Shown here: piece after piece, positions 15,217-42,175 of the stretch
Layout of the letters: every line of letters starts with the position of its first letter
How positions within the stretch are numbered: position 1 is the stretch's first letter
Origin: Pseudomonas baltica
GTDB taxonomy: Bacteria; Pseudomonadota; Gammaproteobacteria; Pseudomonadales; Pseudomonadaceae
DNA length: 64,000 nucleotides
Reading direction: 5' to 3'
Assembly: GCF_031880315.1 (NCBI RefSeq)
Contig: NZ_CP134771.1
Span: 434,001-498,000 of the forward strand
The notes under the pieces: model-generated
The model's database searches: none
Seen by the model: the letters and a program-made list of their open reading frames with translations, nothing else
What the model was told of the DNA's origin: nothing
Made by a program: the position numbers and the translations under genes

Positions 15217-15341
15217 ACGGGCGGCGTCATCTTCCCGTTGTCATTGCCGATGGATAAGCAATGCCCTGGATAAAGTGCGTGAGAGCACGCGCACCCAGAG
15301 GCGGGGAATATCAAGTCGTACGGCCGGAGGCCTGCCCGCAC

Positions 15342-18300
15342 ATGAACAAACGTCATTCGCATAGTTCTTCCATCCGCATCGCACTGGAAACCCGAATGAT
15401 GTTCGACGGCGCGGCCGTCGTCACCGCGGATGCCGCTGCCCACGCCCCTGCCGCCGCCGTGGCTGCTGCGGCGGCCGCACCGGCGGTGGACGCCCACGCC
15501 ACCGCACCGACGGACGCGCATACCACGGCACCCAGCGACGCGACCCACAGCGATCCGACGCTGGCCGCTACCGGCAGCCAATCCGCCGTGCACAGCAGCG
15601 ACGCGCCTGCGGCCGCCGACACCAGCCATGCCACCGCTGACGCAGATCAGCACCACGCCAGCGCCACCGATGCCCTGCACGATGCGCTGACAGCCACCGC
15701 GCCCGTGGATCTGGCGCCGGCCCGGCAAGAGATATTCTTCGTCGACTCCAGCCTGCCAGACCTCAACACTCTGGTCGCCAACCTCCCGGCCCACGCCGAT
15801 ATCGTCTACCTCGACAGCCACAGCGACGGCCTGACGCAAATCGCCGCTGCCCTGCAAGGCCGGGAAAACGTCGATGCGATCCATATCATCACCCACGCCA
15901 CCGAAGGCGCCGTGATCATCGGCGACAGCATCGTCGATACCGCCACCATCGAAGGCCAGTACCACGCGTTGCTGGCCGAGATCGGCTCGCACATGAGCAA
16001 GACCGGCGATGTGCTGATCTACGGCTGCGATTTCGCCGCCGGCTCCGATGGCGCCGCCACAGTCGTCGCGCTGGCCAGTGCCCTGAATGCCGACGTCGCG
16101 GCCTCCTCCAACACCACCGGGGTGGATGGCGACTGGGTGCTGGAAGACCACGTCGGCAACATCGAGACCACCGCCATCCAGGCCACCGACTGGCATCACG
16201 ATCTGCTGCTGGCCACCAACGATACGGCCACGGTCTATTACGGCACCGGCAACGTCATCAACATATTGGCCAACGATACCCTCGGCGGTTTGCTGCAAGG
16301 CGTGACCATTACCACTGCCCCGTCCCACGGCACCGTGGTGATCAACGCCGACAATACCGTGACCTACACGCCGACGGCTGGCGCCAGCACCGCCGACAGC
16401 TTCGGCTACAAGCTCACCTTGCTGGGCGGTCTGGTGACCTCCACCGCCACCGTATCGCTGACCCTCGATCACCCCCCCACCGTCACCGCGCCCAGCGTGG
16501 TCAATGGCACCGAAGACACCTCGATCGTGCTGTCCGGCGCTGGCAAGCTGATCACCATCGCCGACACCGACAACAGCACCACCACCGTCACCCTCAGCGT
16601 GCCGACCGGCACCCTGGCGCTGTCCACCGCCACCGGCCTGACCTTTACCCAAGGCAGCGCCAGCGGCACCTCGACAGTCACGTTCAGCGGCACCGTCGCC
16701 GCCGTCAATACCGCACTCAACGGCCTCGTCTACACACCGGTCGCCGATGCCAACAGCACCGCCGCCGCGCCGATCAACCTCAGCGTCACCGCTGTCGACT
16801 CGCTGGGCGGCACCGCCACGTCCACCGTCGGCCTGGTACTGGCGCCGGTGGCCGACGTGGTCGCCGATACGGTGACCACCAAACAAAGCACCCCGGCGAG
16901 CTTCAACGTGCTGAGCAATGACACCTTCTCCAACGCCGGTCGGGTAGTGTCCAGTTTCACCAACCCTGCCCATGGCGTGGTCACCATCGACGCCCAGGGC
17001 AATGCGGTCTACACCCCGACCGCCGGCTATGCCGGCACCGACACCTTCACCTATACCGTGACCTCCGGCGGCAAGAGCGAAACCGGTACCGTCACCGTCA
17101 CCACCCTCCTCAACTACGCGCCGACCATCACCGTGCCGGCCGCCACCCAGACGTTCAACGAAGACACCAGCCGGGTGTTTTCCAGCACCAACAGCAACGC
17201 CATCACCGTGGCCGACGCCAACAACGACATCCTCACCGTCACCCTCGCCTCGACCCACGGCACCCTGACCTTGTCGCAAACCACCGGCCTGACCTTTACC
17301 AGCGGTGACGGCACTGCCGACAGCAGCATGGTGGTGCGCGGCACGGCAGCGGCGATCAACGCCGCCCTCAATGGCCTGCAGTTCATCCCGGTCGCCGACT
17401 ACAACGGCACGGCGAATATTTCGGTGCAAGCCAGCGACGGCATCGCCGCGGTGCAGAGCGCCAGCGTGGCGTTGAGCCTGACCCCGGTCGCCGATGGCGT
17501 CACCGACAACGTCAGTACCTCAATTCTGACCGGAGTGACCTTCACGCCCCTAACCAACGACACCTTCGCGGCAGGAGCCAGCATCACCTCCATCAGTTCG
17601 CCGTCCCATGGTGTGGCGCTGCTGCTAGGCAACAGCGTCACCTACACCCCGGCGATCGGCTATTCCGGCACCGACACCTTCAGCTACACCGTCACCTCGG
17701 GCGGCGTCACCGAAACCATCCCGATTACCGTCACGGTCGGTGATACCGCGCCCACAGCACCCGCCACCCTGGGCACCCTGGCGACAGTCGACAAAGGCTT
17801 GGTGCTGGTCCTCGCCGGCGCGGGATTCCGTGACGCCGACCTGCTCGACGTCTTGCACTACACCGCCACCGGTCTGCCTGCCGGGCTGACCATCGATCCG
17901 CTGCTCGGCACCATCAGCGGGATTGTCGACGGCCACGCCTCGGTCAATGGCGTGAACGGCACCGGTACCTACAACGTGGTGGTCACCGCCACTGACCTGG
18001 CGGGCCAAAGCGCCAGCTCGACTGGCACCATCACCGTCACCAACCCTGCGCCTGTTCCGTTGCTGGGGCTGCAGGTCGGCGGTACCGAAAACGCCCTGCT
18101 CGGTATTGGCGTCAGCGCGCTGGCGATCGTCGATCCCGATGGCGACGCCTTCAGCATCACCAGCGCCACCGCCGCGCACGGCACCGTGACCATCAACAAC
18201 GACGGCTCGCTGAGCTATCAGCCCAACGCCAACTACTACGGCCTCGACTCCATCACCTACACCGTCAAGGACGTCGACGGTGGTCAGGCCACCGGCTATG

Positions 18301-21300
18301 TCGCCGTGGTCCTGGCGGCGATACCGCACATTCCGGTGCTGAGCCTGCCATCGATTCCGCTGTTGCTCGAAGACACCCCGCTGATCTTCGCCAACCTGCT
18401 CGGCCAGCAACTGAGCGTCGGCAATATCGACGGCGATGCCGTGGCCATCAACCTCGATCTGCCCGTGGGCATCGGTGCGTTGAGCATCGCCAACCTTACC
18501 AACCACACCGCCGTATCGCTGACCCAGACCAGCGACACCCTCGGCACACACCTGCGCATCTCAGGGTTGTCGGCCGACGTCAACGCCGCGCTCAACGACC
18601 TGGTCTATACCCCGGCCGCCGACTACAACGGCCCGCTGAACATCACCATCGGCCTGGGCAAGTTGCTGGGCGGCATCATCAGCGTCAACGCCACTTTGCC
18701 GATCAGCATCGCGCCGGTGGCCGACATCGTCGACGACAACGTCACCGCCACGCTCGATACGCCCGCATCCTTCAATGTCCTGGCCAACGACACCTTCGAA
18801 AATTCCGGCCGCGTAGTCGACAGCTACACCACGCCGTTGCACGGCACCGTGACCATCGATGCCCAAGGCAACGCCATCTACACCCCCACGACCGGCTATA
18901 CAGGCAGCGACAGCTTCACCTACACCGTCAAATCCAATGGCACGTACGAGACGGCTACCGTCCACATCAATGCCATCTTGCCCAACTACGCGCCGACCAT
19001 CAGCGCTCCGGCTTCGCTGACCTTCAATGAGGACATCTCCCAGGTATTCTCGAGCGCCAACGGCAATGCCGTGACGGTGGCCGATCAGAACAACGACATT
19101 CTGACCGTCACCCTCAGCACCAACCACGGCGCCCTGACGCTGCACCAGACCACCGGCCTGACCTTCACCAGCGGCGACGGCAACGCCGATGGCAGCATGA
19201 CCTTCTCCGGCAGTTCCGCCGCGATCAACGCCGCACTCAATGGCATGAGTTTCGTGCCCACTGCCGATTACAACGGCAGCGCTACCATCAGCGTGCAGGC
19301 CAGCGACGGTATCGCCGCGGTGCAAAGCTCGAGCATCGCCCTGACCATCAATCCGGTGGCCGACGGCGTTGCCGACACCATTACCACAGGCCCATTGGCG
19401 CCCGTGACGTTCTTCCCGCTGGCCAACGATACGTTCTCCGGCACTCCGGTGATCACCGGCATCAGCCAGGGCGCTCACGGCCTGGTGGTGCTGGGTCTCA
19501 ATGGCGCGGTCACCTACACCCCGGCGTTGGGCTACCTGGGCGCGGACACGTTCACCTATACCGTAACTTCCGGCGGCGTCACCGAGACCGTCGCGGTCAA
19601 TGTCAGCGTCGGCGACCATGCACCCACGTCCAATGGCAACCTCGGCACCGTGCCGCTGCTCGACGGCCAACTGACCGTCGCGCTGTCCACCGCCCAGGCC
19701 TTCACCGATGTCGATCCGCTGGATGTGCTGCACTACACGGCGACCAACTTGCCTGCCGGTCTGACCATCAATTCCTTGACCGGGTTGATCAGCGGCCAGG
19801 TCGACGGCCACGCCTCTGTCAATGGCCTCAATGGCACCGGCACTTACAATGTCGTGGTCACCGCCACCGATCTGGCGGGCGCCAGCGCCACCAGCAACCT
19901 GGTGATTCAGGTCACCAACCCAGCCCCGATCCCCCTGATCGGGCTGCAAGTGACCGGCAACGAAGACACGCCCATCGACATCACCGCCGCAGCGCTGGGC
20001 GTGGTCGACCCCGATGGCGATACCATCACCGTGACGGGCGCCACCGCGCTGCACGGCACCGTGACCATCAACAACGACGGCTCGCTGCGCTACACCCCGA
20101 CCGCCAACTACAACGGCATCGACACCATCACTTACCAGGTCAAGGACGCCGATGGCGCTACAGCCACTGGTTACGCTGCGGTGGTGGTGGTGCCGGTGAT
20201 CGATCTACCAACCATCCAGGTGCCGTCGATTCCGCTGCTGGCTGAAGACACCCCCCTGATATTCGCCAATATCGTCGGCCAGCACCTGACGGTCGGCAAC
20301 GTCGATGGCGACATTCTGGACCTGCGCATCAGCGTGCCGCTGGGGCAGTTGAGCCTCACCAACACCACCGGCATTTCGTTGTCCGAGGGCAGCAGCACAG
20401 GGTCTTCGGTGTTGCATTTTTCCGGCACCACGGCGGCCATCAATGCCGCGCTCAACAGCCTGGTCTACACCCCCGGCGCCGATTACAACGGCCCGCTCAA
20501 TATCACCCTGGCGCTCGGTCATCTGACAGGCGGCATTCTCAACGTCAATGTCGACCTGCCGATCACCATCACCCCGGTTGCCGACATCGTCCCGGACTAC
20601 GCTACCACCACGACCAACAACCCGGTGACCTTCAACGTCCTGGCCAACGACACGTTCGAGAACGCTGGCCGCGTGATCGAAAGCCACACCAACCCCACCA
20701 ACGGCACCGTCACCATCGATGCCCAGGGCAACACCACGTACACCCCCGCGACCGGTTTCACAGGCACCGACACCTTCACCTACACGGTGCTGTCCAACGG
20801 CACTCGCGAGACCTCCACGGTCACCATCACCGTCAATGCCGCTGCGGACATCGCGCCCGTGGGCACCGCCATCGCCAATCAGACCGGCACCGACGGCCAG
20901 CCGGTCAGCATCAATGTCAGCGGTCATTTCAGCGATGCCGACAACGATCCGCTGACCTACAGCGCCACCGGCCTGCCTGCCGGCGTGACCATCAACGCCA
21001 CCACCGGGTTGATTACCGGCACCCTCGGCGGCCATGCATCGACGGCGGTGACCAGTGGCGCCTACGCCATCGTGGTCACCGCCAACGATGGCCGAGGCGG
21101 CCTGGTCAGCGAGAGCTTCGTGCTCATAGTCAGCAACCCCGCCCCGATTGGCAACCCTGACACCTTCAACGGCACTGAAGGCACTGCCATCACGGGCAAT
21201 GTGAAGACTAACGATACCGACCCCGATGGCGACACGCTGCAGATCAGCACCACGCCGGTACAAGGTCCGGCCAACGGGACTCTGGTGCTCAACAGCGACG

Positions 21301-24300
21301 GCAGCTTCGTCTACACCCCCAACGCGCGCTTCCACGGCACGGACACCTTTCAGTATCAGGTCGTCGATGCCGACGGCGGCACCGCCACGGCCACCGTTAC
21401 CCTCAACATCGCCGCCGTCAACGAAGCGCCGGTGACCACCGGTGCAATCGGCAACCAGACCGCCAACGACAGCGCCACCGTCACCCTCAATGTCGCCGGG
21501 CAGTTCAGCGACCCGGATGGCGACGCCCTGACCTACACCGCCACCGGTCTGCCCGCCGGCCTGGGCATCAGCGCCAACGGCCTGATCACCGGCACGCTGG
21601 GCGGCAGCGCTTCCCAGGGCGGCAATCAGGGCGCCTACACGGTGGTCGTCACCGCCACTGACGGCAGCGGTGCCTCGGTCAACCAGACCTTCACCTTCAA
21701 CGTCATCAACCCGGTGCCGACCACCGCCGACAGCACCAACACCACGCCTGAAGACACTGCCGTCACCGGCACCCTGGCGGCCAACGACGTCGACCTCGAC
21801 ACCCTGACCTTCAGCGCCACCACGCAACCCGCCCACGGCACGCTGGCACTCGACAGCGCTACCGGGGTGTACACCTACACCCCGGCTGCCAATTTCAATG
21901 GCACCGACAGCTTCACCTACAAGGTGGTCGACGCCGATGGCGGTGTCGTCACCGCCACCGTGACCCTCACCGTGACACCGGTCAACGACGCTCCCGCCGC
22001 CGTAGGCAGCATCGGCGCGCAAACCGGTATCGATGCCGCACCGTTCAGCCTCAGCGTCGCCAACCGCTTCAGCGATGTCGACGGCGATACCCTCAGCTAC
22101 AGCGCCAGCGGCCTGCCGACGGGTCTGAGCATCGATGCCAACGGCTTGATCAGCGGCAACCTCGCCAGCAGTGCATCGCAAGGCGGCAACCATGGCCTCT
22201 ACAGCGTCGCCATCACCGCCGATGACGGCCATGGCGGCACCGTGGTGCAAAACTTCACCCTGAACGTCAGCAACCCCGTACCGGTGACTGCCAACAGCGC
22301 TGTCACCACTGCCGAAGACACAGCGGTGTCCGCCACGCTGGTGGCCACCGACGATGACACCGTCACCTTCGCTCCGGCCACCGGCCCGAGCCACGGCACC
22401 CTGGTGCTCAACGCCACCACGGGCGTGTACACCTATACCCCGGCCGCCAACTTCAACGGCACCGACAGTTTCACCTACACCGTGACCGACGCCGACGGCG
22501 CCAGCACCACAGCCACCGTGACCCTCACAGTCACCCCGGTCAATGACGCGCCCAGCACCACGCCGGGCTCGATCGGCACCCAGACCGGCGTCGACAGCAC
22601 GGCGTTCAACCTCAACATCGCCAACAAATTCAGCGATGTCGACGGCGACACCCTGAGCTTCAGCGCCACCGGTCTGCCCAGTGGCCTGAGCGTCGATCCG
22701 GCCACCGGCCTGATCACCGGCACGCTGGGCAGCAGCGCCTCCACCGGCGGCCTCAACGGCACCGGCGCCTACAGCATCACCGTCACCGCCAACGACGGCC
22801 AAGGCGCCACCGCCGCTCAGACCTTCACCCTCAATGTCAGCAACCCAGCGCCCACGGCGGCCAACAGCACCTTGGTCATCAACGAGGACAACGTCGCCAC
22901 CGGCAACCTGCTGACCGACGCCAACGCCAGCGATCCGGACGGCGATGCGCTGCACATCGACACCACCCCGGTGACCGGCCCTGCCCATGGCGTGCTCACG
23001 CTCAACGCCAACGGCACCTACATCTACACGCCTGCCGCCAACTACAACGGCAGCGACAGCTTCAGCTACCGTGTGGTCGACGCCGATGGCGGTTCCGTCA
23101 CCGCGACCGTCGCCATTACCATCAACCCGGTCAACGACGCACCGGTCACCAACGGCACCATCAGCGCCCAGGCCGCCAACGACGGCAGTGCGTTCAGCCT
23201 CAACGTCGCCAACAATTTCACCGATGTCGACAGCACCCTGACCTACACCGCCACCGGCCTGCCGCCAGGCCTGAACCTCGATCCGGCCACTGGGCTGATA
23301 AGCGGCACCTTGGGCACCAGCGCCTCGCAAGCCGGCAGCAACGGTACCGGCGGCGTCGGCGGTGTCTTCAGCGTGGTGATCACCGCCAGCGACGGCAGCG
23401 CCAGCGCATCTCTAGCCTTCACCTTCACGGTCAACAACCCGGCGCCTGCGGCCAACAACAGCACCCTGACCATCAACGAAGACAGCGTCGCCACCGGCAA
23501 TGTGCTGGTCAACGCCAGCGATCCGGACGGCGATGCCCTGCATGTCGACACCACACCCGTGACCGCACCACAACACGGGGTCTTGAGCCTCAATGCCAAC
23601 GGCACCTATACCTATACGCCGACGGCCAACTTCAATGGCACCGACAGCTTCAGCTACCGGGTTATCGACGCTGACGGCGCCAGCACCACCGCGACGCTGA
23701 CGTTCAATATCACCCCGGTCTACGATGCCCCGGTTGCCAGTGGCACGATCCAGGCGGTCACGGCCAACGACCACACCAGCGTCAACGTCAATGCCGCCGC
23801 GGCCTTCACCGATGCCGACAACACCGCCCTGAGCTACAGCGCGACCGGTCTGCCCATCGGCTTGAGCATCGATGCCAACACCGGCCTGATCACCGGCACC
23901 CTGAACAGCAGCGCCTCCACCGAAGGCCCTGGCGGCCATGGCGTGTACACCGTGCAGGTCAGCGCCAGCGACGGCCTGGGTGGCATTGCCACGCAAACCT
24001 TCACCCTGACCGCCGTCAACACCGTACCGACCGCCAGCAACGCTACCATCACGCTGGCTGAAGACACCTCGGCCAGCGGCACCTTGCTGAGCAACGCCAG
24101 TGACGCCGACCAGGATACCCTGACCTTCGCGGCCACCAGCCAGCCCACCCACGGCACCTTGGTGCTCAATGCCAACGGCAGCTACACCTACACTCCGGCG
24201 GCCAACTACAACGGCAGCGACAGCTTCAACTACCGGGTCACCGATGCCGACGGCGCCAGCACCACCGCGACCCTCACGTTCAGTGTCACGCCGGTCTACG

Positions 24301-33300: not shown

Positions 33301-33470
33301 GCGCGGCAACCCCCGAGGCAGCACCGCAACAGGCCCCCGGCACCGGCGACGGCAATCCACAGGCCAGCAATGTGACGCCGCTGCCGTTGACCCTCAACGA
33401 GCAGCTGCAAGCCGCCAGCCAGGCACGCCTGGCCGAACGCGATGCGCTGGCACGGCTGTTGGCCAGCTGA
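15342..33470 (+). CDS. Giant Ig-like repeat surface protein (DUF4347, putative adhesin)
   Basis: An uninterrupted 18.1 kb frame encoding about 6,042 residues. The start at 15342 (MNKRHSHSSS) follows GGAGG. Residues 13-24 hold the motif IALETRMMFDGA, found near the N-terminus of many giant exported proteins. An Ala/Thr/His-rich stretch leads to a DUF4347 domain (~127-287: EIFFVDSSLPDLNTLV, IHIITHATEGAV, LIYGCDFAAGSDG). Residues ~290-1830 are Ig/cadherin-like modules with a ~620-residue super-repeat. Residues ~1837-5710 are about 20 alternating He_PIG-like (YSATGLPAGLSID) and Big_9/cadherin-like (TYTPAANFNGTDSFTY) units of ~195 residues. A Gly-Thr linker (~5807-5850) and a Pro/Ala-rich tail ending in a charged helix complete it. 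There is no classical Sec signal and no RTX GGxGxDxLx repeat. Four export genes follow on the same strand. Inferred role: surface attachment or biofilm. Family known only by repeat pattern. Confidence 0.92.
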   Translation: MNKRHSHSSSIRIALETRMMFDGAAVVTADAAAHAPAAAVAAAAAAPAVDAHATAPTDAHTTAPSDATHSDPTLAATGSQSAVHSSDAPAAADTSHATADADQHHASATDALHDALTATAPVDLAPARQEIFFVDSSLPDLNTLVANLPAHADIVYLDSHSDGLTQIAAALQGRENVDAIHIITHATEGAVIIGDSIVDTATIEGQYHALLAEIGSHMSKTGDVLIYGCDFAAGSDGAATVVALASALNADVAASSNTTGVDGDWVLEDHVGNIETTAIQATDWHHDLLLATNDTATVYYGTGNVINILANDTLGGLLQGVTITTAPSHGTVVINADNTVTYTPTAGASTADSFGYKLTLLGGLVTSTATVSLTLDHPPTVTAPSVVNGTEDTSIVLSGAGKLITIADTDNSTTTVTLSVPTGTLALSTATGLTFTQGSASGTSTVTFSGTVAAVNTALNGLVYTPVADANSTAAAPINLSVTAVDSLGGTATSTVGLVLAPVADVVADTVTTKQSTPASFNVLSNDTFSNAGRVVSSFTNPAHGVVTIDAQGNAVYTPTAGYAGTDTFTYTVTSGGKSETGTVTVTTLLNYAPTITVPAATQTFNEDTSRVFSSTNSNAITVADANNDILTVTLASTHGTLTLSQTTGLTFTSGDGTADSSMVVRGTAAAINAALNGLQFIPVADYNGTANISVQASDGIAAVQSASVALSLTPVADGVTDNVSTSILTGVTFTPLTNDTFAAGASITSISSPSHGVALLLGNSVTYTPAIGYSGTDTFSYTVTSGGVTETIPITVTVGDTAPTAPATLGTLATVDKGLVLVLAGAGFRDADLLDVLHYTATGLPAGLTIDPLLGTISGIVDGHASVNGVNGTGTYNVVVTATDLAGQSASSTGTITVTNPAPVPLLGLQVGGTENALLGIGVSALAIVDPDGDAFSITSATAAHGTVTINNDGSLSYQPNANYYGLDSITYTVKDVDGGQATGYVAVVLAAIPHIPVLSLPSIPLLLEDTPLIFANLLGQQLSVGNIDGDAVAINLDLPVGIGALSIANLTNHTAVSLTQTSDTLGTHLRISGLSADVNAALNDLVYTPAADYNGPLNITIGLGKLLGGIISVNATLPISIAPVADIVDDNVTATLDTPASFNVLANDTFENSGRVVDSYTTPLHGTVTIDAQGNAIYTPTTGYTGSDSFTYTVKSNGTYETATVHINAILPNYAPTISAPASLTFNEDISQVFSSANGNAVTVADQNNDILTVTLSTNHGALTLHQTTGLTFTSGDGNADGSMTFSGSSAAINAALNGMSFVPTADYNGSATISVQASDGIAAVQSSSIALTINPVADGVADTITTGPLAPVTFFPLANDTFSGTPVITGISQGAHGLVVLGLNGAVTYTPALGYLGADTFTYTVTSGGVTETVAVNVSVGDHAPTSNGNLGTVPLLDGQLTVALSTAQAFTDVDPLDVLHYTATNLPAGLTINSLTGLISGQVDGHASVNGLNGTGTYNVVVTATDLAGASATSNLVIQVTNPAPIPLIGLQVTGNEDTPIDITAAALGVVDPDGDTITVTGATALHGTVTINNDGSLRYTPTANYNGIDTITYQVKDADGATATGYAAVVVVPVIDLPTIQVPSIPLLAEDTPLIFANIVGQHLTVGNVDGDILDLRISVPLGQLSLTNTTGISLSEGSSTGSSVLHFSGTTAAINAALNSLVYTPGADYNGPLNITLALGHLTGGILNVNVDLPITITPVADIVPDYATTTTNNPVTFNVLANDTFENAGRVIESHTNPTNGTVTIDAQGNTTYTPATGFTGTDTFTYTVLSNGTRETSTVTITVNAAADIAPVGTAIANQTGTDGQPVSINVSGHFSDADNDPLTYSATGLPAGVTINATTGLITGTLGGHASTAVTSGAYAIVVTANDGRGGLVSESFVLIVSNPAPIGNPDTFNGTEGTAITGNVKTNDTDPDGDTLQISTTPVQGPANGTLVLNSDGSFVYTPNARFHGTDTFQYQVVDADGGTATATVTLNIAAVNEAPVTTGAIGNQTANDSATVTLNVAGQFSDPDGDALTYTATGLPAGLGISANGLITGTLGGSASQGGNQGAYTVVVTATDGSGASVNQTFTFNVINPVPTTADSTNTTPEDTAVTGTLAANDVDLDTLTFSATTQPAHGTLALDSATGVYTYTPAANFNGTDSFTYKVVDADGGVVTATVTLTVTPVNDAPAAVGSIGAQTGIDAAPFSLSVANRFSDVDGDTLSYSASGLPTGLSIDANGLISGNLASSASQGGNHGLYSVAITADDGHGGTVVQNFTLNVSNPVPVTANSAVTTAEDTAVSATLVATDDDTVTFAPATGPSHGTLVLNATTGVYTYTPAANFNGTDSFTYTVTDADGASTTATVTLTVTPVNDAPSTTPGSIGTQTGVDSTAFNLNIANKFSDVDGDTLSFSATGLPSGLSVDPATGLITGTLGSSASTGGLNGTGAYSITVTANDGQGATAAQTFTLNVSNPAPTAANSTLVINEDNVATGNLLTDANASDPDGDALHIDTTPVTGPAHGVLTLNANGTYIYTPAANYNGSDSFSYRVVDADGGSVTATVAITINPVNDAPVTNGTISAQAANDGSAFSLNVANNFTDVDSTLTYTATGLPPGLNLDPATGLISGTLGTSASQAGSNGTGGVGGVFSVVITASDGSASASLAFTFTVNNPAPAANNSTLTINEDSVATGNVLVNASDPDGDALHVDTTPVTAPQHGVLSLNANGTYTYTPTANFNGTDSFSYRVIDADGASTTATLTFNITPVYDAPVASGTIQAVTANDHTSVNVNAAAAFTDADNTALSYSATGLPIGLSIDANTGLITGTLNSSASTEGPGGHGVYTVQVSASDGLGGIATQTFTLTAVNTVPTASNATITLAEDTSASGTLLSNASDADQDTLTFAATSQPTHGTLVLNANGSYTYTPAANYNGSDSFNYRVTDADGASTTATLTFSVTPVYDAPTVGAPVANVTANDHTSVNLNLAGNFNNPDNATLTYSATGLPNGLSINAGTGVITGTLDSSASTEGSNGAGGPGGNYTVNVSVSDGLGGTATQTFIFTAVNTVPVASNATVTLAEDTPATGTLLSNASDADQDALTFVATSQPVHGTLALNANGTYTYTPAANFNGSDSFNYQVTDADGATSTATLTFNVTPVYDAPTAGTPVATQTAFDHSSVSLNVAGNFNNPDNATLTYSATGLPNGLSINASTGLITGTLDSSASTEGSNGAGGAGGNYTVNVSVADGLGGTATQTFTFTAVNTLPVAGNATVTLAEDTSAPINLNTTATDADGDALTFAITTGPAHGTLTVAANGQYTYTPAANYNGADSFTYSVTDADGAVSSAVITLNVTPVYDAPVAGAPIGTQSANDSSTVSLNVAGNFSDADNHALTYSATGLPNGLNIDANTGLITGTLNSSASTQGSNGAGGPGGNYTVVVTATDGTTPVTQTFTFTAVNTLPVASNATVTLAEDTSAPINLNTSATDADGDALTFAITTGPTHGTLTLAANGQYTYTPAANYNGADSFSYSVTDADGAVSTAVISLNVTPVYDAPASNGSLPALTANDSSTVNLNVTGSFTDADNRALTYTATGLPAGLSIDANTGLLSGTLSSSASTQGSNGAGGPGGLYSVVITASDGLGGSAAQSFTLTAVNTLPVAGGTSLTLAEDTPTPINLNALASDADVDALTFSITQGPANGTLQLNSNGNYTYVPNANFNGSDSFTYQVTDADGATSTATIALTITPVYDAPTTIGQIPTQQASDASAVNLAVANNFTDADGAHLTFSATGLPAGVTIDANSGLITGILNSSASTQGSNGSGGPGGNYNVVVTATDGTTAVTQSFTLTAVNTVPTAASATISLTEDGSTSGSLANYASDADHDALTYAITTQPTHGTLTLSANGTFIYTPTAGFVGSDSLTYSVSDPDGGATTAVLNFNVLADTGGPVAAGTINTQVANDHTPLNFNVAGNFSDSTPGATLSYSATGLPAGIAIDPATGLIFGTLNSSASVQGSDGNGGPGGNYTVVITASDGVGGTATQTFTITAVNTIPVANSATLNLNEDGVATGDLHTYASDADGDALTFSVAQAPAHGTLLLNANGTYSYTPNANFNGTDSFIYQVSDPDGGNSRSTLVTIIAPVYDGPVAVGTLPTLTANDHTSVTLNAANAFSDADGTPLTYNVTGLPNGLTFNTSTGLITGTLDSSASTQGSNGAGGAGGLYTVVVTASDGLGGTATQTFTLTAVNTLPVASNATVTIAEDTVATGDLHNSASDADLDALTFAVTTQPSHGSLVFNAAAGTYTYTPNANFNGADSFSYSVTDADGAVSNAVISFNVTPVYDAPVPTASINTVTANDHSSVSLNVTGNFSSPDNLPLTYSATGLPNGLTLDPNTGLLSGTLDSRASTEGLNGGGSYTIRVTANDGTTSVFQDFTLTAVNTVPVASSATVTLAEDSSHSGDLHTTASDADQDTLSFAVTTPPAHGTLTLDSATGVYTYTPTANFNGADSFSYRVSDLDGGNSTTATITFNVTPVYDAPTANGTIAAQSANDGAAVNVNVAGNFGDVDNTALTYSASGLPTGVSIDPATGLITGTLGSSASLGSSNGGAAGQYNIVVSATDGTSIVTQAFTLTAVNTVPTAASAIVNLAEDSVTNGNLNTLAGDTDGDALTFSASTQPLHGVLALNANGTYSYTPVANFNGTDSFNYTVTDADGASRSATLTFNVTPVYDAPTATAPINNLTANDHTSVNLNVTGNFTSVDNLPLTFTATGLPNGITLDPGTGLLSGTLDSSASHQGPNAAGVYTIRVTASDGTSSAFQDFTLTAVNTQPVASNATLTLNEDSSTPVDLRAYASDADADALTFTATTQPAHGTLTQLANGQYTYTPAANFNGTDSFTYTVTDADGAVTSATLTFSVAPQYDAPSAAAPIATVTANDHSSVNVNVAGNFNNVDNATLTYTATGLPAGLSIDPSTGLISGTLNSSASSQGSNGSGGPVGSGGNYTVTVSASDGQGGVADQTFTLTAVNTVPTASNATITLPTGSNVSASLLNYAQDADGDVLTFAATTAPTHGTLVLGANGAFTYTPDAGYNGTDTLTYQVTDADGGTTSATLTFNIAANYQSPAATGSITPLSANDHTTVNLNVAGNFTDSNNIPLTYTATGLPAGVTLDPTSGLISGLLGTSASTQGIGGSGTYTVVITASDGVGGTATQSFTLTAVNTVPVANGATVNTSEDSPVSGDLHANASDTDGDALSFTAVTQPAHGTLTLAANGQYTYTPAANFNGADSFTYQVTDADGGASTATLVINVAPAYDAPSVTTPIATVTANDHSAVNVNVAGNFTSVDNLPLTYSATGLPAGLTLDPTTGLLSGTLNSSASTQGSNGSGGPGGNYSVTVSANDGTSSVSQTFTLTAVNTLPSASNVSVTVQQGTALNGTLANYASDADGDALTFSAASQPGNGLVTVGANGSYTYTPASGFVGQDSFTYQVRDADGGVTVATITFNVSTQPDQAPIVTTPVPAQTATDGGAFNLNVAGSFSDPDGDTLTYSVSGLPAGLTLNPQTGEITGTLSNNASSQGSNGSGGAGGLYTLTLTASDGTDSVSQQIQLVVSNPAPVTTGAAYTLPEDSSISGVLVATDPDGDAISFGIAQGPSHGSLTLNANGSFTYVPNPDFNGADSFTYQVRDSDGGTTNAVVTFTVTPVNDAPVATPGTVTVVTGAPSVIDVLGNVSDADGDPLSVTGAGADHGTVVVNPNGTVTYTPTSGYTGSDTLTYTVSDGAGGSVTSTIAVTVSTNAGTGNGGGTGTGTGTGTGTGNGTGTGTGTGNGTGTGDGTGTGTVTTTPDGFVGVTSTQRITDGLVGIPPSYNSPQSSTYTRITHYDPVLLDAVNGVKRLDGLTQLSEDRPMQEVATGMAPLATTTEISNNAAPVAQATGDLQEQNRQQLDVDALRPGAPGTTQEAPTQAPPAATEPATAPGAATPEAAPQQAPGTGDGNPQASNVTPLPLTLNEQLQAASQARLAERDALARLLAS
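16842..20830 (+). repeat. Super-repeat of ~1.86 kb inside the adhesin gene
   Basis: The block starting PVADxVxDxxT recurs at about 16842, 18712 and 20573, a period of 1861-1870 bp (~620 residues). Two full copies and the first module of a third are present. Each copy carries DAQGNAxYTP and, in full copies, TTGLTFTSGDG further on. Copies are clearly homologous but diverged. Confidence 0.8.
20850..32470 (+). repeat. About 20 tandem ~585 bp composite Ig-like repeats
   Basis: Two modules alternate: a He_PIG-like one (SATGLPxGLxIDxxTGLITG) and a Big_9/cadherin-like one (YTYTPAANFNGxDSFxYxVT). I counted about 20 pairs by eye. Some neighbours are nearly identical at the DNA level, for example 24371 onward against 24959 onward (588 bp offset) and 25221 onward against 25806 onward (585 bp offset), which points to recent duplication or gene conversion. 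Confidence 0.8.
32761..32890 (+). repeat. Degenerate hexanucleotide repeat coding a Gly-Thr linker
   Basis: Runs of the pattern GGNACN encode alternating Gly-Thr with occasional Asn/Asp. It joins the last Ig-like module to the C-terminal tail. Changes in multiples of six bases would alter linker length without breaking the frame. Confidence 0.75.
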
Positions 33471-33660
33471 GGTCGGTGACGCGCTGCTACAGAGATACGA
33501 ACAGCGTCATAAGCGGCGTGGCGCACATATATTCGCGCCATTGCATTGCTTAATCGCCGGAGACTGCTTCACTGAGGAAAGAAGTTCCTGATTCACCCCG
33601 GATACCGCAACTGTTCCGGGGGCAAGGTTTCACCTGTACCACCCCAACGCGTCATCATTC

Positions 33661-33684
33661 GTCGGCCAGGCCCTCCCTGCCGAC
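33661..33684 (+). other. RNA hairpin candidate
   Basis: GTCGGCCAGG and CCTGCCGAC pair over 9 bp with one bulged C and a five-base loop. It lies 38 bp before a possible leader ORF and 200 bp before the TolC-family gene. Attenuation or transcript stabilisation is possible. Confidence 0.35.
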
Positions 33685-33721
33685 AGGACGCCGGTCCAGC
33701 CGACACAGACAGGAGTCGATC

Positions 33722-33805
33722 GTGAGTCATACCACCGCAATCCATACGTTGACCTTTCGGACAGAATGCCTGCAGCGATGCCTGCCGGTGCCGATGGCAG
33801 GGTAA
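33722..33805 (+). CDS. Possible 27-residue leader ORF
   Basis: A GTG-started frame of 27 codons preceded by AGGAG at six bases' spacing. The product (VSHTTAIHTLTFRTECLQRC then seven residues) matches nothing I know. It precedes the exporter genes and follows an RNA hairpin, so a leader-peptide role is conceivable, but the frame could be chance. Confidence 0.2.
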   Translation: MSHTTAIHTLTFRTECLQRCLPVPMAG

Positions 33806-33884
33806 TGAAAATAAGGGTCGCATCCCGGCGCTCGTGCTACGCCAGGGTCGCAAGCCACATCACGGTCATTGACGCAGAGAACTT

Positions 33885-35468
33885 ATGGACAAGCCAATTC
33901 CCATTGCGCTGGGATCAGCAGTACGCCAATGCCTGTTGGTGATGGTGGGCTGCCTGTATCTGTCGGCCTGCACCATCGTTCCACAACCCATCGACGTCGA
34001 TCAGCAGGCCCTCGATCAGAAAGCCAAGATCGATGCCACGATCGCCGCCGAAGAGCCGGTCACCCACCCGTTAAGTCTCTATGAGGCCATGGCCCGCGCG
34101 CTCAAGTACAACCTCGATCAAAAAATCGAAGTGCTTGACGAAGCCCTGCGCCAGAAGCAACTGGAGCTCAACCGCACCGGCATGCTGCCTGAATTGTCCC
34201 TGGGTGGCGGCATCGCCAATCGCAGCAACGAGGCCGGTTCCAGCAGCCGCTCGTTGCTGTCCGGCAACCAGTCATTGGAGCCCTCGACCTCCAGCGAGCG
34301 CACCACCGAAAACGCCAACCTTACCGCCAGCTGGGACATCCTCGATTTCGGCCTGTCGTACGTGCGCGGCCTGCAGGACGCCGACGAACAGCTGATTTCC
34401 GCAGAGCGCCGGCGCAAGGTAGTCAACCGTATCCAGGAGGACGTGCGCACCGCCTACTGGCGCGCGGTGAGTGCCGACCGCACCTACAAGAAGCTGGTCG
34501 ACCTCGAAGCCCTCGCGCAAAAGGCCCTGCTGCAAACCCAGCAACTCGAATCCCGGCGCCTGGTGCCACCGCTCACTGTGCTCGACTACCAGCGCAACCT
34601 GCTGCAGGTGCAAGGCGACGTGCAAAAACTGCAACGCGAACTGTCGCTGGCCAAGAACCAGCTCGCGGCGCTGATCAACCTCAAGCCCGATACGCGCTTC
34701 ACGCTGGAACTGCCTGACCGCACCGACGTAGTGCCCGAGCTGCCCGGCTCGGCCGATGAAATGGTCATGGTCGGCCTGCGCTTTCGCTCCGAACTGCGCG
34801 AAGGCAGCTACCGCGCGCGCATCAACAAGAGCGAAATGAACGCAGCGCTTATCCGTGCTCTTCCCAGCCTCAAAGGCGTGATCGGCCTCAACTACGACTC
34901 CAACAGCTACCTGTACAACCAAAGCTGGGCCAACGCCGGCGCGCAGATGACCTGGAACCTGATGAACGTGTTCCGCTATCCGGCGCAAAAACGCGCACTG
35001 GTGGCCGAAGGCGCAGTGATCGATCAACGCCAGCTCGCACTGACGCTCGCGGTGATGACCCAGATCCACGTCTCGCGGGTGCGCTTCATTCGTTTCTCGC
35101 AAGAACTGGGCACCATCCGCAGCTCCGAAGAAGTCCAGCAGCGCATCCTCGCGCTGTCCCGCGGCGGCTTCCAGGCGCACACCGTCAGCCAGCAGGACCT
35201 GGTGCGCGAAGAGATGAACTCGGTACTCGCCGAGATCAAATACGACGCCGCCTACGCCGACGTGCAGAACGCCTACGCCAACCTCTATGCGTCGATGGGC
35301 CTGGACAACTTCGACATCGACATCCAGCCCGATACGCCCATCGCCGAGATCGCCGGCAAGTTGCAGCAACACTGGACCGAACGCGCCAGCAGCCTGCCGC
35401 CGATGCCCGAGCCTCCGGCCGCTGATGATACGTCCAATACCGCGACGCAAGGGAGCACGCCACAATGA
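33885..35468 (+). CDS. TolC-family outer-membrane efflux lipoprotein
   Basis: A 527-residue TolC-like channel. The N-terminus has a hydrophobic segment ending in a lipobox (YLSAC-T), so the mature protein is probably lipid-anchored. Two long outer-membrane-efflux repeats follow: SLYEAMARALKYNLDQKIEV with LTASWDILDFGLSYV, and later AGAQMTWNLMNVFRYPAQKR. Coiled-coil regions around residues 170-265 and 370-450 match the TolC tunnel. The C-terminus is Pro-rich. It is the first of four tightly packed genes (4 bp overlap with the next). Inferred role: outer-membrane exit duct for the giant protein encoded just upstream. Confidence 0.88.
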   Translation: MDKPIPIALGSAVRQCLLVMVGCLYLSACTIVPQPIDVDQQALDQKAKIDATIAAEEPVTHPLSLYEAMARALKYNLDQKIEVLDEALRQKQLELNRTGMLPELSLGGGIANRSNEAGSSSRSLLSGNQSLEPSTSSERTTENANLTASWDILDFGLSYVRGLQDADEQLISAERRRKVVNRIQEDVRTAYWRAVSADRTYKKLVDLEALAQKALLQTQQLESRRLVPPLTVLDYQRNLLQVQGDVQKLQRELSLAKNQLAALINLKPDTRFTLELPDRTDVVPELPGSADEMVMVGLRFRSELREGSYRARINKSEMNAALIRALPSLKGVIGLNYDSNSYLYNQSWANAGAQMTWNLMNVFRYPAQKRALVAEGAVIDQRQLALTLAVMTQIHVSRVRFIRFSQELGTIRSSEEVQQRILALSRGGFQAHTVSQQDLVREEMNSVLAEIKYDAAYADVQNAYANLYASMGLDNFDIDIQPDTPIAEIAGKLQQHWTERASSLPPMPEPPAADDTSNTATQGSTPQ

Positions 35469-36439
35469 GCCGCAAGTCACTAGGCTTGATCATGCTGTCC
35501 GGGACGGGCTTGCTGATCGCCGCGATGTATCACGCCAACCCGTCCACCACCACTGCCACCGCGCCTGCGCCGCCGATGATGCTGATCGGCAGCGCCCAGG
35601 CCGCCGAAGGCCCGGCCGTGGCCAAACCGTTGGTGGCATTGCCCCCGGCAGCACCGGGTACACCCGCCACTGCCTCGCCGCTGGTCTCGCCCCTGCCCGC
35701 CGCCATGAACGGCCCCGGCCCCGCTGACCTGCAAAAGCCCCCTTCCGACCCCAACTCCCAGGCCGACGCCAACGGCGGCAAGGCCCGCGGCGTGGTGCGT
35801 GCCGTCAATGAGGCGACCCTGTCATCGTCGATGGTGGCGCAGATCACCCAGATGAATTTCAGCGAAGGCACCGCCTTCAAGAAGGGTGACCTGCTGGTGG
35901 CGTTCAACTGTGATCGGGCCCAGGCCGACTTGCGCGCGGCCCAGGCCGGGTTGCAGGTGGAACAGAAAACCGTCGAGACCAACCAGGAGCTCGAACACTT
36001 CAACTCGGTGGGCAAGTTCGACGTGCTGATCTCGCAATCCAAGCGCAACAAGGCCAAGGCCGAAGTCGAAGCGCTGCAGGCGCAGATCAAGGAATGCAAG
36101 GTCTACGCGCCCTTCGATGGCCGGGTGATCGAGCGCATGAAGCATGTCCACGAATCGGTGGCGGTGAGCGAGGCCATGCTCAAGATCGTCGACACCAGCA
36201 AGCTGGAGCTGGACCTGATCGTGCCGTCCAAATGGCTGCAGTGGCTCAAGCCCGGCTCGCCCTTCACCTTCGCCGTCGACGAGACGGGCAAGAGCAGCGG
36301 TGCGGTGGTCGATCGCCTGTTGCCCGAGGTCGATCCGGTCAGCAAGACCCTGAAGATCATTGGCCGCTTCAACTCCAGCGACAACGGTCAGACCATCCCC
36401 GGCATGAGCGGCACCGCCACCTTCAAGGCGGGGGGCTGA
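35465..36439 (+). CDS. Periplasmic adaptor (RND/HlyD-type membrane fusion protein)
   Basis: A 324-residue adaptor whose ATG overlaps the TolC-family stop (ATGA). An N-terminal hydrophobic segment (residues ~6-22) anchors or exports it, followed by a Pro/Ala-rich stretch to ~95. The core shows the lipoyl halves (MNFSEGTAFKKGDLLVAFNC and KVYAPFDGRVIERM) flanking a short helical hairpin (~140-195), then a beta-barrel with VDPVSKTLKIIGRF and IPGMSGTATF near the end, as in RND adaptors. It should link the TolC-like duct to the inner-membrane proteins encoded next. Confidence 0.88.
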   Translation: MSRKSLGLIMLSGTGLLIAAMYHANPSTTTATAPAPPMMLIGSAQAAEGPAVAKPLVALPPAAPGTPATASPLVSPLPAAMNGPGPADLQKPPSDPNSQADANGGKARGVVRAVNEATLSSSMVAQITQMNFSEGTAFKKGDLLVAFNCDRAQADLRAAQAGLQVEQKTVETNQELEHFNSVGKFDVLISQSKRNKAKAEVEALQAQIKECKVYAPFDGRVIERMKHVHESVAVSEAMLKIVDTSKLELDLIVPSKWLQWLKPGSPFTFAVDETGKSSGAVVDRLLPEVDPVSKTLKIIGRFNSSDNGQTIPGMSGTATFKAGG

Positions 36440-36446
36440 CCGCGCC

Positions 36447-37826
36447 ATGAGCATCAACATCCAGCTGCCGCCGCAGCCGCCGACGGATGACAGCAAGGCG
36501 CACATGGCGGCGCTGCACCTGCTCACCCTGGAAGCCGAGATCCGCCGCCAGCCGTCGCGCCAGGACGTGCTGTTCCATCTGGTCAACGCCGTGCAGGACA
36601 TGGTCCCTTACGGCCAGGCCATGGCCTGGCGGCGCACCCACAAGGGCGGCAAGTTCCAGCTGAAGATGGTCTCGGGCATCCCGGTGGCCGACCGTCACAC
36701 GCCCCTGGCCGAAGCGCTGCAAGGGGTGCTGAGCGAACACGATAAAGCCGGCTTCCTCACCGCTCAGGTGGCCTTCGAATTGCGTGCACCCGCAGGCGCC
36801 GCGGCAGTGCGCTCGCCCCTCGCCGACTTCGCCCTGAGCCATGCGTTGTGGGTCCCCCTGCGCGACTACGACGGCGCGGTGAACACCGGCGCGCTGCTGC
36901 TGCGCGACACGCCGTTCAGCCCGCGCGAACAGACCTTGATGCAGCGCCTGGGGGAAACCTACGCACACTCGCTGCAGGTGTTCGGTCGTCAGCGCCGGCT
37001 GATCGACCGCCTGCCGCTGAACAAGCGTGCCCTGGGCATCGGCGTGGCTATCGTGGTCGCGGCGGCGTTCATTCCGGTGCGTTTGAGCGTCATGGCGCCG
37101 GTCGAGGTGATCGCCGATCAACCCTACATCCTGACTGCACCTATCAATGGCGTGATCCGCAACATCCTCGTCGCGCCCAATACCCAAGTGGCAGTCAATC
37201 AGGCGCTGGTGCAGTTCGAAGACATCCAGCCGCGCAACGAAATGGTCCTCGCCCAGCAGCAACTGGCCGTGGCCCAGGCCAAGGACAGCCGCACCTCGGC
37301 AGCCGCGTTCAACGACGCCGAGGCGGCGCACGAACTGGCCATCGCCGCCGCCGAGCATGATCTGGCGCGGGTCAATTACGAGTACACGATGGAAGTCCTG
37401 CAGCGCACCCTGATCCATACCCCGATCGCCGGCCTGGCGGTGTACAGCGACCGGCGCGACTGGGAAGGCCGCTCGGTACAGGTGGGTGAAGAAATCATGC
37501 AGGTCGCCGACCCGCAGCGCATCGCCTATCGCATCGACCTGTCGACCGGCAACGCCATCGAACTCAAGCCTGGCAACCCGGTGGGGATCTATCTGGAGAG
37601 CTCGCCACTGGGCGGCATCGATGCCGATCTCAAGTCGGTCAGCTACACGCCCAAGACCACCGGCGGCAACCTCACCAGCTACACCGCCATCGCCATGCCG
37701 GCGGGTGATCAACGCCCGCGTATCGGTTCGCGCGGCACCGCGCGGGTCTACGGTGAATACGCGCCGTTGGCGATCCAGTTGTTGCGTCGGCCGATCGCCG
37801 CCGTGCGCCAGTTCCTGGGGGTATAG
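36447..37826 (+). CDS. GAF-like/HlyD membrane adaptor
   Basis: A 459-residue protein. Residues ~20-175 resemble a GAF domain (VLFHLVNAVQDMVPYGQAMA, later WVPLRDYDGAVNTGALLL and FSPREQTLMQRLGETYAHSL). One transmembrane segment lies at ~191-212 (ALGIGVAIVVAAAFIPV). The periplasmic part is an HlyD-type adaptor: lipoyl half ILTAPINGVIRNILVAPNTQ, a helical hairpin (~265-310), then LIHTPIAGLAVYSDRRDWEG. The topology places the GAF-like domain in the cytoplasm, where it could sense a ligand or dock cargo. The gene sits 7 bp after the first adaptor and 2 bp before the M50 gene. Confidence 0.85.
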   Translation: MSINIQLPPQPPTDDSKAHMAALHLLTLEAEIRRQPSRQDVLFHLVNAVQDMVPYGQAMAWRRTHKGGKFQLKMVSGIPVADRHTPLAEALQGVLSEHDKAGFLTAQVAFELRAPAGAAAVRSPLADFALSHALWVPLRDYDGAVNTGALLLRDTPFSPREQTLMQRLGETYAHSLQVFGRQRRLIDRLPLNKRALGIGVAIVVAAAFIPVRLSVMAPVEVIADQPYILTAPINGVIRNILVAPNTQVAVNQALVQFEDIQPRNEMVLAQQQLAVAQAKDSRTSAAAFNDAEAAHELAIAAAEHDLARVNYEYTMEVLQRTLIHTPIAGLAVYSDRRDWEGRSVQVGEEIMQVADPQRIAYRIDLSTGNAIELKPGNPVGIYLESSPLGGIDADLKSVSYTPKTTGGNLTSYTAIAMPAGDQRPRIGSRGTARVYGEYAPLAIQLLRRPIAAVRQFLGV

Positions 37827-37828
37827 AC

Positions 37829-40021
37829 ATGGCGGTTGCAGGATTGGCAGCGGCAGGCAACGTCCGGGCGGGCGGGTTGTTGGCCGATGACGTCGGCCTC
37901 CCGCCATTGCGCCAGGAGCTGCGCCTGGAGCAGGCAGCGCCGAGCCCGGAAGGCATCCCGCGCTGGCGCCTGTACGACCCCCTGCAGCACCGCTTCTTCA
38001 TGATCGGCGAAGACGATGTCAGGCTGCTCGCGCTGTGGTCGTGCGGCAGCGTCGGCAACTTGCGCAAGGCTTTGGCTCAGCAGGCCCGCGCCTTGGATGA
38101 CGAACGCTTCGAAGACGGCATGCTGGACGAAGAATCGCTGGAGGGGCTGTTGCGTTTTCTTAACACCCATCATCTGCTGCAGACCTCAGGCAAGCAGGCC
38201 TATCAGCTGCTCGCCGACCAGGCCAAGCGCATGCGCGGCCACGGCCTGCGCGGGCTGATCAACCGGGTGTTGGCCATGCGCCTGCCGGTGTGGAGCCCCC
38301 ACGCGTTTATCGAGTATTTCATCCCTACCGTCAAAGCCATCGGTCATCGCTCGGTGCTGACGGTGTGGTGCGTACTGACCCTGCTGGGGATCTACCTGAC
38401 GACCCGCCAATGGGACCAGTTCATCGGCACTTTCAGCGACTTCTTTTCGCCCTCCGGCATGCTCGCCTACGGCGTCGCGCTGGCCGGCCTGAAGATCGTC
38501 CACGAGCTGGGCCACGCCTATATGGCGACCATTCGCGGTGTACGGGTGGGCAACATGGGCGTGTCGATCTTCATGGGCATGCCCATGCTCTATACCGAAC
38601 TCGGTGACGTCGCGAGGCTCAACAATCCGCGCCAGCGCATGTGGATCGCCGCCGGCGGCGTGCTCGCGGAAAGCTTCGTCGCGGGCCTGGCGACCCTGGC
38701 CTGGGCGGTGCTGCCAGAAGGCAGCCTGCGCAGCGTGGCCTTCGTGATCGCCACTACCAGCTGGCTGACCAGCCTGCTGGTCAACCTCAACCCGCTGTCG
38801 CGCTTCGACGGCTACTATTTTCTCGCCGACGCCCTGCGCCTCGACAATCTGCAACCACGCGCGCTGGCCTACAACCAATGGCTGATCGGGCGGATGCTGC
38901 TGGGGCCGGTGGAGCCAGCGCCAGAACCGGTATCGCGCCGCCGGGCGGCGTTATTCGTGACCTATGGGACGCTGTCCTGGTGTTACCAGATCACGCTCAG
39001 CTGCGGCATCGCCTGGCTGGCCTACAAGACCCTGTTCAAGACCGCCGGGGTGATGCTGCTGGCCTATGCGCTGTGGCAGTTCGTCGGCTTGCGCATCCTG
39101 CGTTCGGTGCAACACTGGTGGAGCCTGCGCGATCGCGTGGGCAACCGTCGAAGGCTGGGCCTGGCTATCTTTGGCGGTGTGTTGCTGCTGTTGTTCGTGC
39201 TGCCCCTGGACCGCCGCGTAGAGATTCCAGCCATGGTCGGCTGGCAATTCGTGACGCCGATCCAGGCCCCGGAAAACGCCCGCATCGAGGAGCTGCCGAT
39301 GCGCCCGGACAGCCAGGTAAAAAAAGGCGACCTGCTGGTGCGCTTCTACTCGCCAGAGCTCGACAGCAAACGCGCCACCGCGCAGCTCAACCTGACCATC
39401 GCCAGCGAGCGTCTCGATCGCATCGGCGGCGACGACCGCGACCGCGCCGAAACCATGGTCCTGCATCAGCAACAGTTGCAGGCCCAGGCCGACCTCGCCG
39501 GCCTGGCCGACCGTGCGCGTATGCTCGAATGGCGCGCACCGCAAGATGGCTTGCTGGTGGATGTGCCGGCCAACCTGCAGGTCGGCCAATGGGTCAAACC
39601 CAGCGCTACCCTTGGCCGCCTGCTGCACGGCGATGCGCTGGACGCCATCGGCTTCGTCAATGAAAAGGAACTGGCCCGCCTGCATACCGGCGCCACCGGC
39701 GTGTTCGTCGCCGACGAACCGAGCCTGCCGCGCCATCGGGTCAGCCTCAAGGCCATCGACAACAGCGCCAGCGAATTCATCAGCCCCGACAGCCTTAGTT
39801 CCCGCTACGGTGGCCCCATCGCCACGCAGCCCAACGATCAAGGCAAATCGGTTCCGGTGGTGGGCCAGCACCGGGTCAATTTCGATGTCAATGAAGGCAA
39901 TCCCCTGGGCTTGCCGTTACGCGTGCGCGGCGAGATCCAGCTCGCCGCCACCCCGCAAAGCCTTGCCGAACAAACCATCCGCCGGGTCTGGCAGTTGTTG
40001 ATTGCAGAGCTACGGGATTGA
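37829..40021 (+). CDS. PqqD-like / M50 site-2 protease / HlyD fusion protein
   Basis: A 730-residue inner-membrane protein with three parts. Residues ~45-120 resemble a PqqD-like domain (WRLYDPLQHRFFMIGEDDVR). Residues ~165-430 are a polytopic M50 (site-2 protease) domain with the zinc motif HELGH at 225-229 and the second motif NPLSRFDG with Asp327, so the usual catalytic residues are all present. After further membrane segments, residues ~465-725 form an HlyD-like periplasmic part (ARIEELPMRPDSQVKKGDLL, WRAPQDGLLVDVPANLQVGQ). It ends the export operon. It may recognise and/or cleave the giant protein or drive export without an ABC ATPase; this is inference. I recall similar M50-HlyD fusions near other giant proteins but know of no firm mechanism. 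Confidence 0.87.
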   Translation: MAVAGLAAAGNVRAGGLLADDVGLPPLRQELRLEQAAPSPEGIPRWRLYDPLQHRFFMIGEDDVRLLALWSCGSVGNLRKALAQQARALDDERFEDGMLDEESLEGLLRFLNTHHLLQTSGKQAYQLLADQAKRMRGHGLRGLINRVLAMRLPVWSPHAFIEYFIPTVKAIGHRSVLTVWCVLTLLGIYLTTRQWDQFIGTFSDFFSPSGMLAYGVALAGLKIVHELGHAYMATIRGVRVGNMGVSIFMGMPMLYTELGDVARLNNPRQRMWIAAGGVLAESFVAGLATLAWAVLPEGSLRSVAFVIATTSWLTSLLVNLNPLSRFDGYYFLADALRLDNLQPRALAYNQWLIGRMLLGPVEPAPEPVSRRRAALFVTYGTLSWCYQITLSCGIAWLAYKTLFKTAGVMLLAYALWQFVGLRILRSVQHWWSLRDRVGNRRRLGLAIFGGVLLLLFVLPLDRRVEIPAMVGWQFVTPIQAPENARIEELPMRPDSQVKKGDLLVRFYSPELDSKRATAQLNLTIASERLDRIGGDDRDRAETMVLHQQQLQAQADLAGLADRARMLEWRAPQDGLLVDVPANLQVGQWVKPSATLGRLLHGDALDAIGFVNEKELARLHTGATGVFVADEPSLPRHRVSLKAIDNSASEFISPDSLSSRYGGPIATQPNDQGKSVPVVGQHRVNFDVNEGNPLGLPLRVRGEIQLAATPQSLAEQTIRRVWQLLIAELRD

Positions 40022-42156: not shown

Positions 42157-42175
42157 TAGCTATATGCCAGTCGTC

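Follow-up and report, generated by a model that had tools for sequence, protein, structure and literature searches.

A giant repeat protein of Pseudomonas baltica and its probable dedicated export cassette, with an M50-HlyD protein and no ABC ATPase

In a 64,000-nucleotide window of Pseudomonas baltica (contig NZ_CP134771.1, positions 434,001 to 498,000), a gene for a giant repeat protein is followed by a cassette encoding a TolC-family lipoprotein, two HlyD-type adaptors and a protein that joins a PqqD-like domain, an M50 membrane domain and a HlyD adaptor, here called M50-HlyD. All five genes, which an earlier note on this DNA had described as co-directional, were found as plus-strand open reading frames (ORFs; Table 1). 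Giant and cassette are supported as a real, recurrent and dedicated module, and the cassette is probably a dedicated TolC-type secretion system for the giant, without an ATP-binding cassette (ABC) ATPase and with an intramembrane protease as its inner-membrane part. This reading is carried by the gene content and architecture, a near one-to-one coupling between the exporter and an N-terminal leader of the giant, the conservation of the M50 catalytic site and the caspase-like fold of the DUF4347 domain behind the leader. The earlier note was right about the gene set; it had overlooked the leader, a conserved tail at the C terminus, the caspase-like character of DUF4347, a sister class with LEPR-XLL leaders and ABC exporters unlinked to the cassette.

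The leader and its coupling to M50-HlyD

Read from the ATG at 15342, the giant has 6042 residues (6069 from the first ATG; ORF 15261-33470) and begins MNKRHSHSSSIRIALETRMMFDGA. Pfam matched DUF4347 at 2.3e-39 and, in long arrays, dozens of repeats from the Big_9, Cadherin and He_PIG families, which agrees with the earlier description of an Ig-repeat protein of ~6,000 residues. The leader has the core LETRMMFDGA in the window's giant and LEPRx[ML]FD[GA] in other genomes. Over 58 aligned rows its pattern is L-E-x-R-x-[MLAV]-[FL]-D-[GA], with L, E, R and D in all 58 and F in 55, the regular expression used having fixed L and limited the choice at E, R and D; the same four residues are invariant in 38 of 38 non-redundant leaders. 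Conservation extends to positions beyond the expression, with A at +9 in 52 of the 58 rows and T at +13 in 51. A chance motif was considered as an explanation and rejected, because E, R and D are invariant where a choice was allowed, because positions outside the expression are conserved, and because the coupling described below is also seen with an independently made NCBI model. A Sec-like hydrophobic core was found in none of the 58 leader regions, whose best 14-residue mean hydropathy is 1.69 as against 2.31 for the signal of the TolC lipoprotein.

The genomic co-occurrence that the earlier note had proposed as a check came out as a near-absolute pairing. A 38-residue leader model, to which the window's leader is the sole match in its genome (E 1.6e-13), and an alignment of the M50 protein were both run on the same 397 Pseudomonadota genomes, and the M50 set was split into classes A and B after its scores were seen to be bimodal (lowest A 457 bits, highest B 333.5). 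M50-HlyD of either class is present in 84 genomes: 69 (26 families) have class A, eight of them together with class B, and 15 have class B only. At E<=0.01 the leader model matched 71 genomes, 68 of them with class A, three without M50 and none with class B only (Fisher p = 8e-72, a value inflated by relatedness). The three matches without M50 are weak and chance-like (E 0.0025-0.006, frames of 310-605 residues), and neither DUF4347 nor an exporter was found near them. The sole class A genome not matched by the model, G014, on inspection has a 3332-residue frame with LEPRTLFDGA that ends directly upstream of the TolC gene (L169, L205). Among 199 genomes of the window's genus, M50 occurs in 90 and the leader in 90 of these 90; copy numbers of the two (0 to 3) are equal in 197, the exceptions being G477 (0 vs. 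1 leader) and G449 (1 vs. 2). The leader of G477 stands on a 296-residue frame (L207, 9511-10398) in which leader and partial DUF4347 are fused to the last part of M50-HlyD. This frame is a deletion scar of the cassette, which was lost in one piece since the frame runs straight from the DUF4347 part into the M50-HlyD end. In the ten single-contig class A genomes, a leader gene lies within 23 kb of each of the 13 M50 genes.

Conservation of the cassette was followed in the best 80 of at least 574 confirmed M50-HlyD loci, which span Pseudomonas, sphingomonads, Rhizobiales, Nitrospira, SAR11, Halomonas, Pectobacterium and others. In 80 of 80 loci the M50 gene is adjoined by the membrane adaptor; the RND-type adaptor is present in 77 (all except L067, L073 and L091) and TolC in 37 within the fetched flank. 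The leader was identified on 57 long frames in 55 loci, and in eight further loci the only sign is a giant whose 5' end is open. When ORFs of 90-1500 residues from 33 representative loci and the window were clustered, adaptors and M50 were found in 34 of 34 loci and TolC in 25, and the next clusters reached only 7 and 5; no broadly conserved regulator gene was found among these 34 loci. Leader giants accompany the cassette in Nitrospira and SAR11 loci as well. The cassette seems to move as a unit, as a metagenome-assembled genome of Burkholderiales (L017) outscores the other Pseudomonas loci, L016 apart, for the window's TolC, both adaptors and M50, many of the TolC hits in this comparison being partial. 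Four SAR11-type loci (Pelagibacteraceae) have the three adaptor genes with giants of 2342-2637 residues directly upstream; the leader is present in two of them (L087, L090), and in the other two (L075, L094) the start of the giant lies beyond the locus.

Fifteen class B cassettes were fetched, and the start of the giant is visible in five: LEPRLLFSA, LEERILLSA, LEPRFLLSA, LEPRIMLDA and LEPRVLLNS, which is the NCBI LEPR-XLL motif (18.4 bits for the first, against a cut-off of 17). LEPR-XLL (NF012209) has the same N-terminal place and LEPR core as the leader and is a motif model only. It was noted on a Vibrio protein of 8000 residues with C-terminal RTX domains, in a passage that itself names no exporter. 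At E<=0.05 the model matched 76 of the 397 genomes, namely all 15 with class B only, 49 of the 69 with class A, where matches are weak or fall on extra giants, and 12 without M50. Matches without M50 number 1 of 48 at E<=0.01 (G226, a 64-residue frame) and 0 of 42 at E<=0.0023. The window's giant was not matched at E<=0.1, nor its genome in the 397-genome scan. Judged by sequence, the leader appears to come in two dialects, LEPRxMFDGA and LEPR-XLL, and the exporter in two subfamilies, and the pairing between them is not strict. A strict pairing of LEPR-XLL with class B was rejected because extra LEPR-XLL frames occur in ten class-A-only genomes and the model also matches class A leaders. LEPR-XLL open frames of 11,649 to 19,427 residues occur in G061, G006 and G014.

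The cassette proteins and the DUF4347 domain

The M50-HlyD gene is single-copy in the 6.63 Mb genome (one contig) of the window. Its M50 domain scores 23.8 bits with PF02163, below the cut-off of 27.2, and this family matched 28 of 28 homologues at E<=0.01. H225, E226, H229, N319, P322 and D327 are invariant in the same 28. HExxH and NPxxxxDG stand in a membrane domain of the site-2 protease fold, and a HlyD part was found in all 28. Known site-2 proteases such as SpoIVFB, with which the protein shares fold and HExxH / NP...DG motifs, cut membrane-tethered regulators and, unlike the protein of the window, are not known to carry a HlyD adaptor. An M50 protein is also common to the daptide (NF041824) and YydH/LiaK (NF058609) systems of ribosomally synthesized and post-translationally modified peptides, whose metalloproteases act on leader-bearing precursors. 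NF041824 matched residues 82-415 of M50-HlyD at 6.3e-35 (121 bits, against a curated cut-off of 300). In contrast to those enzymes, the M50 domain here shares a polypeptide with HlyD, and its partner is a giant protein.

Of the PqqD-M50-HlyD fusion described in the earlier note, the M50 and HlyD parts were recovered and the PqqD label is weak: the N-terminal domain has a predicted beta3-alpha3 order, and Pfam PqqD matched 3 of 24 homologues (best 0.0085) and not the window's domain. An hhalign comparison with ten Pseudomonas PqqDs gave a probability of 2.2%, against 0.4% and 0.1% for unrelated controls, and a sequence search of the PDB with this domain gave no meaningful match. The domain was barely probed in a fold search with the whole model because the HlyD part fills the match list. 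The TolC-family lipoprotein is borne out by its PF02321 match and lipobox, and the two HlyD-type adaptors proved to be one of RND type, above the TIGR01730 cut-off, and a membrane adaptor with HlyD_3. The N-terminal domain of the latter is GAF-like and predicted to be cytosolic; the GAF label is weaker than the earlier note had it, as Pfam GAF matched 1 of 21 adaptor homologues (6.8e-5) and was absent from the window's protein.

DUF4347, behind the leader, has a caspase-like fold with His and Cys behind the central strands, as in clan CD, and its catalytic role is putative. The closest known systems are Tce1 (PA0256), an effector of the type VI secretion system with a caspase-like fold and the same His/Cys pair, and the cysteine protease domain of TcdB. 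Unlike in these, DUF4347 stands behind the leader of a giant protein. The proteolytic activity of Tce1 is termed putative in the Tce1 paper.

Table 1. Positions of the giant protein, the cassette genes and their motifs in the window
Feature	Position	Strand	Remarks
Giant repeat protein	15342..33470	+	ORF opens 15261; Big_9, Cadherin_4/5, He_PIG repeats
N-terminal leader	15342..15455	+	core LETRMMFDGA at 15384-15413
DUF4347, caspase-like (clan CD type)	15732..16181	+	putative dyad: His codon 15894-15896, Cys codon 16026-16028
Conserved C-terminal tail of giant	33378..33467	+	PLPLTLNEQL ... LARLLAS
TolC/OEP-family outer membrane protein	33885..35468	+	lipobox LSAC; PF02321 2.5e-31
RND-type periplasmic adaptor	35465..36439	+	TIGR01730 106.9 bits (cut-off 94.9); N-terminal hydrophobic segment 6-24
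Membrane adaptor	36447..37826	+	HlyD_3 3.2e-10; one transmembrane segment 198-216, periplasmic HlyD part
PqqD-like + M50 (site-2-protease-type) membrane domain + HlyD adaptor, one protein	37829..40021	+
PqqD-like N-terminal domain (residues 22-116), candidate leader reader	37892..38176	+	predicted beta3-alpha3 order
HELGH zinc motif	38501..38515	+	second half NPLSRFDG at 38789-38812

A proposed export route and its alternatives

With HlyD-type adaptors and a TolC-type outer membrane protein, the cassette would work like type I secretion, but it does not include the ABC that defines type I as its inner-membrane component. The window's cluster was found to contain no ABC gene and the giant no GGxGxD (RTX) motif, as the earlier note had claimed, and no type I ABC belongs to the conserved core of the loci. 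Giant adhesins of type I systems, LapA with LapEBC and SiiE, likewise are giant repeat proteins without a Sec signal whose genes cluster with TolC and HlyD-type adaptors. The cassette differs from these in that it lacks an ABC ATPase, has three adaptors where those systems have a single one, and carries an M50 protease joined to one of the three; its giant has a conserved N-terminal leader and no RTX motif. Sorting enzymes of the rhombosortase and exosortase type also combine an intramembrane enzyme with a short sorting tag on surface proteins; there, however, tags are C-terminal, substrates use Sec, the proteases belong to other families, and TolC and HlyD are not involved.

The giant would be made without a Sec signal, and its leader would dock on the PqqD-like domain of M50-HlyD, by analogy with the PqqD-type domains of peptide maturases, which read leaders. 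M50-HlyD and the GAF-HlyD-type membrane adaptor, assigned by family and fold, may together form a platform in the inner membrane; its HlyD parts and the third adaptor would dock onto the TolC lipoprotein. Through this conduit the chain would reach the surface, and gene content suggests that no type I ABC ATPase takes part. The conserved M50 site may cut the leader or a nearby segment, DUF4347 may make a second cut outside, for self-cleavage or release, and the chain could be pulled as its dozens of Ig/cadherin repeats fold outside. We lean slightly towards a separate secretion type of diderms, with LEPR-leader substrates, a PqqD-like/M50/HlyD inner-membrane part that is not ABC, RND or MFS, some of the largest bacterial proteins as cargo (LEPR-XLL frames of up to 19,427 residues) and two protease steps.

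Several observations weigh against ABC-free export through the cassette. Export, docking and cleavage are proposals from gene content and conservation. Of the earlier suggestion of a different way to move or process the giant, the dedicated module, the lack of a core ABC and the co-occurrence hold, and export, cleavage and drive are inferred. Matches of the N-terminal domain to PqqD are weak and ambiguous, and 2 of 36 copies of DUF4347 lack the His. In 17 of the 80 loci the fetched stretch contains no leader and no end of a giant; some of these loci are short contigs and others have full flanks (e.g. L030, L038). Some leader giants stand on stretches without a cassette (whole contigs L179 and L185, part contigs L176 and L182); this suggests that the tag can act in trans too, though the genomes concerned are fragmented. 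Ten class-A-only genomes (G006, G018, G026, G030, G061, G065, G081, G097, G105 and G250) have a LEPR-XLL frame of at least 3911 residues at E<=1e-4, and no class B M50 was found in them at 1e-40; either class A handles both leaders or there are M50 classes that the search overlooked.

An unlinked type I ABC might instead export the giant by its C-terminal tail, the cassette only processing or anchoring the N terminus and sharing the TolC-type docking. The tail is conserved, is not of RTX type and occupies the usual position of type I signals; [LF]xx[QK]L lies within the final 45 residues of 21 of 28 giant C termini, as against 59 of 5600 random 45-residue segments of the same proteins. Elsewhere in the window's genome there are three type I ABC exporters, LapB-type L007 and L010 and PrtD-type L012, and LapB-type ABCs above the cut-off occur in 40 of the 69 class A genomes, so that an ABC may act in trans there. 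Near the cassette itself, 2 of the 80 loci (L063 and L084, from two Pseudomonas genomes) have a near-complete LapB-type ABC in their flank, at ~5 kb or less. L078 has a 473-bit ABC fragment, 23 other loci give weak ABC matches of 26-144 bits, and a cluster of ABC type, judged by its listed examples, recurs in 5 of the 34 clustered loci. We nevertheless regard this explanation as unlikely. The 14 class A genomes with the weakest LapB-type matches were run against two further type I models, and since only six passed TIGR01842 and none TIGR01846, eight (G004, G023, G064, G082, G088, G182, G244 and G380) have no type I ABC above any of the three cut-offs; G088 (95% complete, 160 contigs) shows no match at 1e-60. 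Such cut-offs can miss odd ABCs, and another 15 class A genomes have intermediate matches. Each of the three exporters in the window's genome also has its own large protein nearby, together with two genes whose size fits an adaptor or TolC. By size and RTX count, the sole criteria applied to these neighbours, the large proteins are an open frame of at least 3710 residues with one RTX motif, a protein with five, and one of 1871 residues with 21. The cassette, moreover, supplies its own TolC and three adaptors.

Entry into the periplasm by Sec or another general route, the cassette serving only for outer-membrane passage and trimming, would fit its outer part, a TolC lipoprotein with periplasmic adaptors. 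We hold this to be quite improbable, as the 58 leader regions lack a Sec-like core and the predicted cytosolic N-terminal domains of two adaptors would be left without a task. We consider it highly improbable that the M50 protein takes no part in transport and acts in signalling, as a site-2 protease sensing the surface state of the giant: M50 proteases often act in regulated proteolysis and a two-component system lies upstream in the window, but the HlyD part is constant in the homologues and the clustered loci share no broadly conserved regulator.

For the largest surface proteins of bacteria, type I secretion is the exit route that is mostly assumed. If export by the cassette is confirmed, it would count as a new secretion type, and if ABC-free export is true, the LEPR motif and DUF4347 gain a functional meaning and the question of energy becomes sharp. 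With tag, likely reader and protease now named, the idea is open to testing by single deletions. In the open-access literature consulted, a scope that leaves aside subscription papers and preprints, the gene set was not found described as a secretion system.

Genes around the cassette

Upstream of the giant, a response regulator and a sensor kinase are encoded at 11808-13956, with a NUDIX gene (14248-14604) between them and the giant. TctC-type solute receptors follow the cassette on its 3' side (40082-44432), and the P. viridiflava cassette (L016) is likewise trailed by genes of similar size with some DNA similarity to TctC-type receptor genes. Further downstream, 53095-56913 encodes a CheB-CheR-PAS-histidine kinase-receiver hybrid of 1272 residues. 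Elsewhere in the window's genome, the giant frame of at least 3710 residues (L212, 1-11130, minus strand) lies opposite a LapB-type exporter. In G016, a leader giant remote from the cassette is interrupted by a single in-frame stop after frame residue 213 (L172, 8175-15326).

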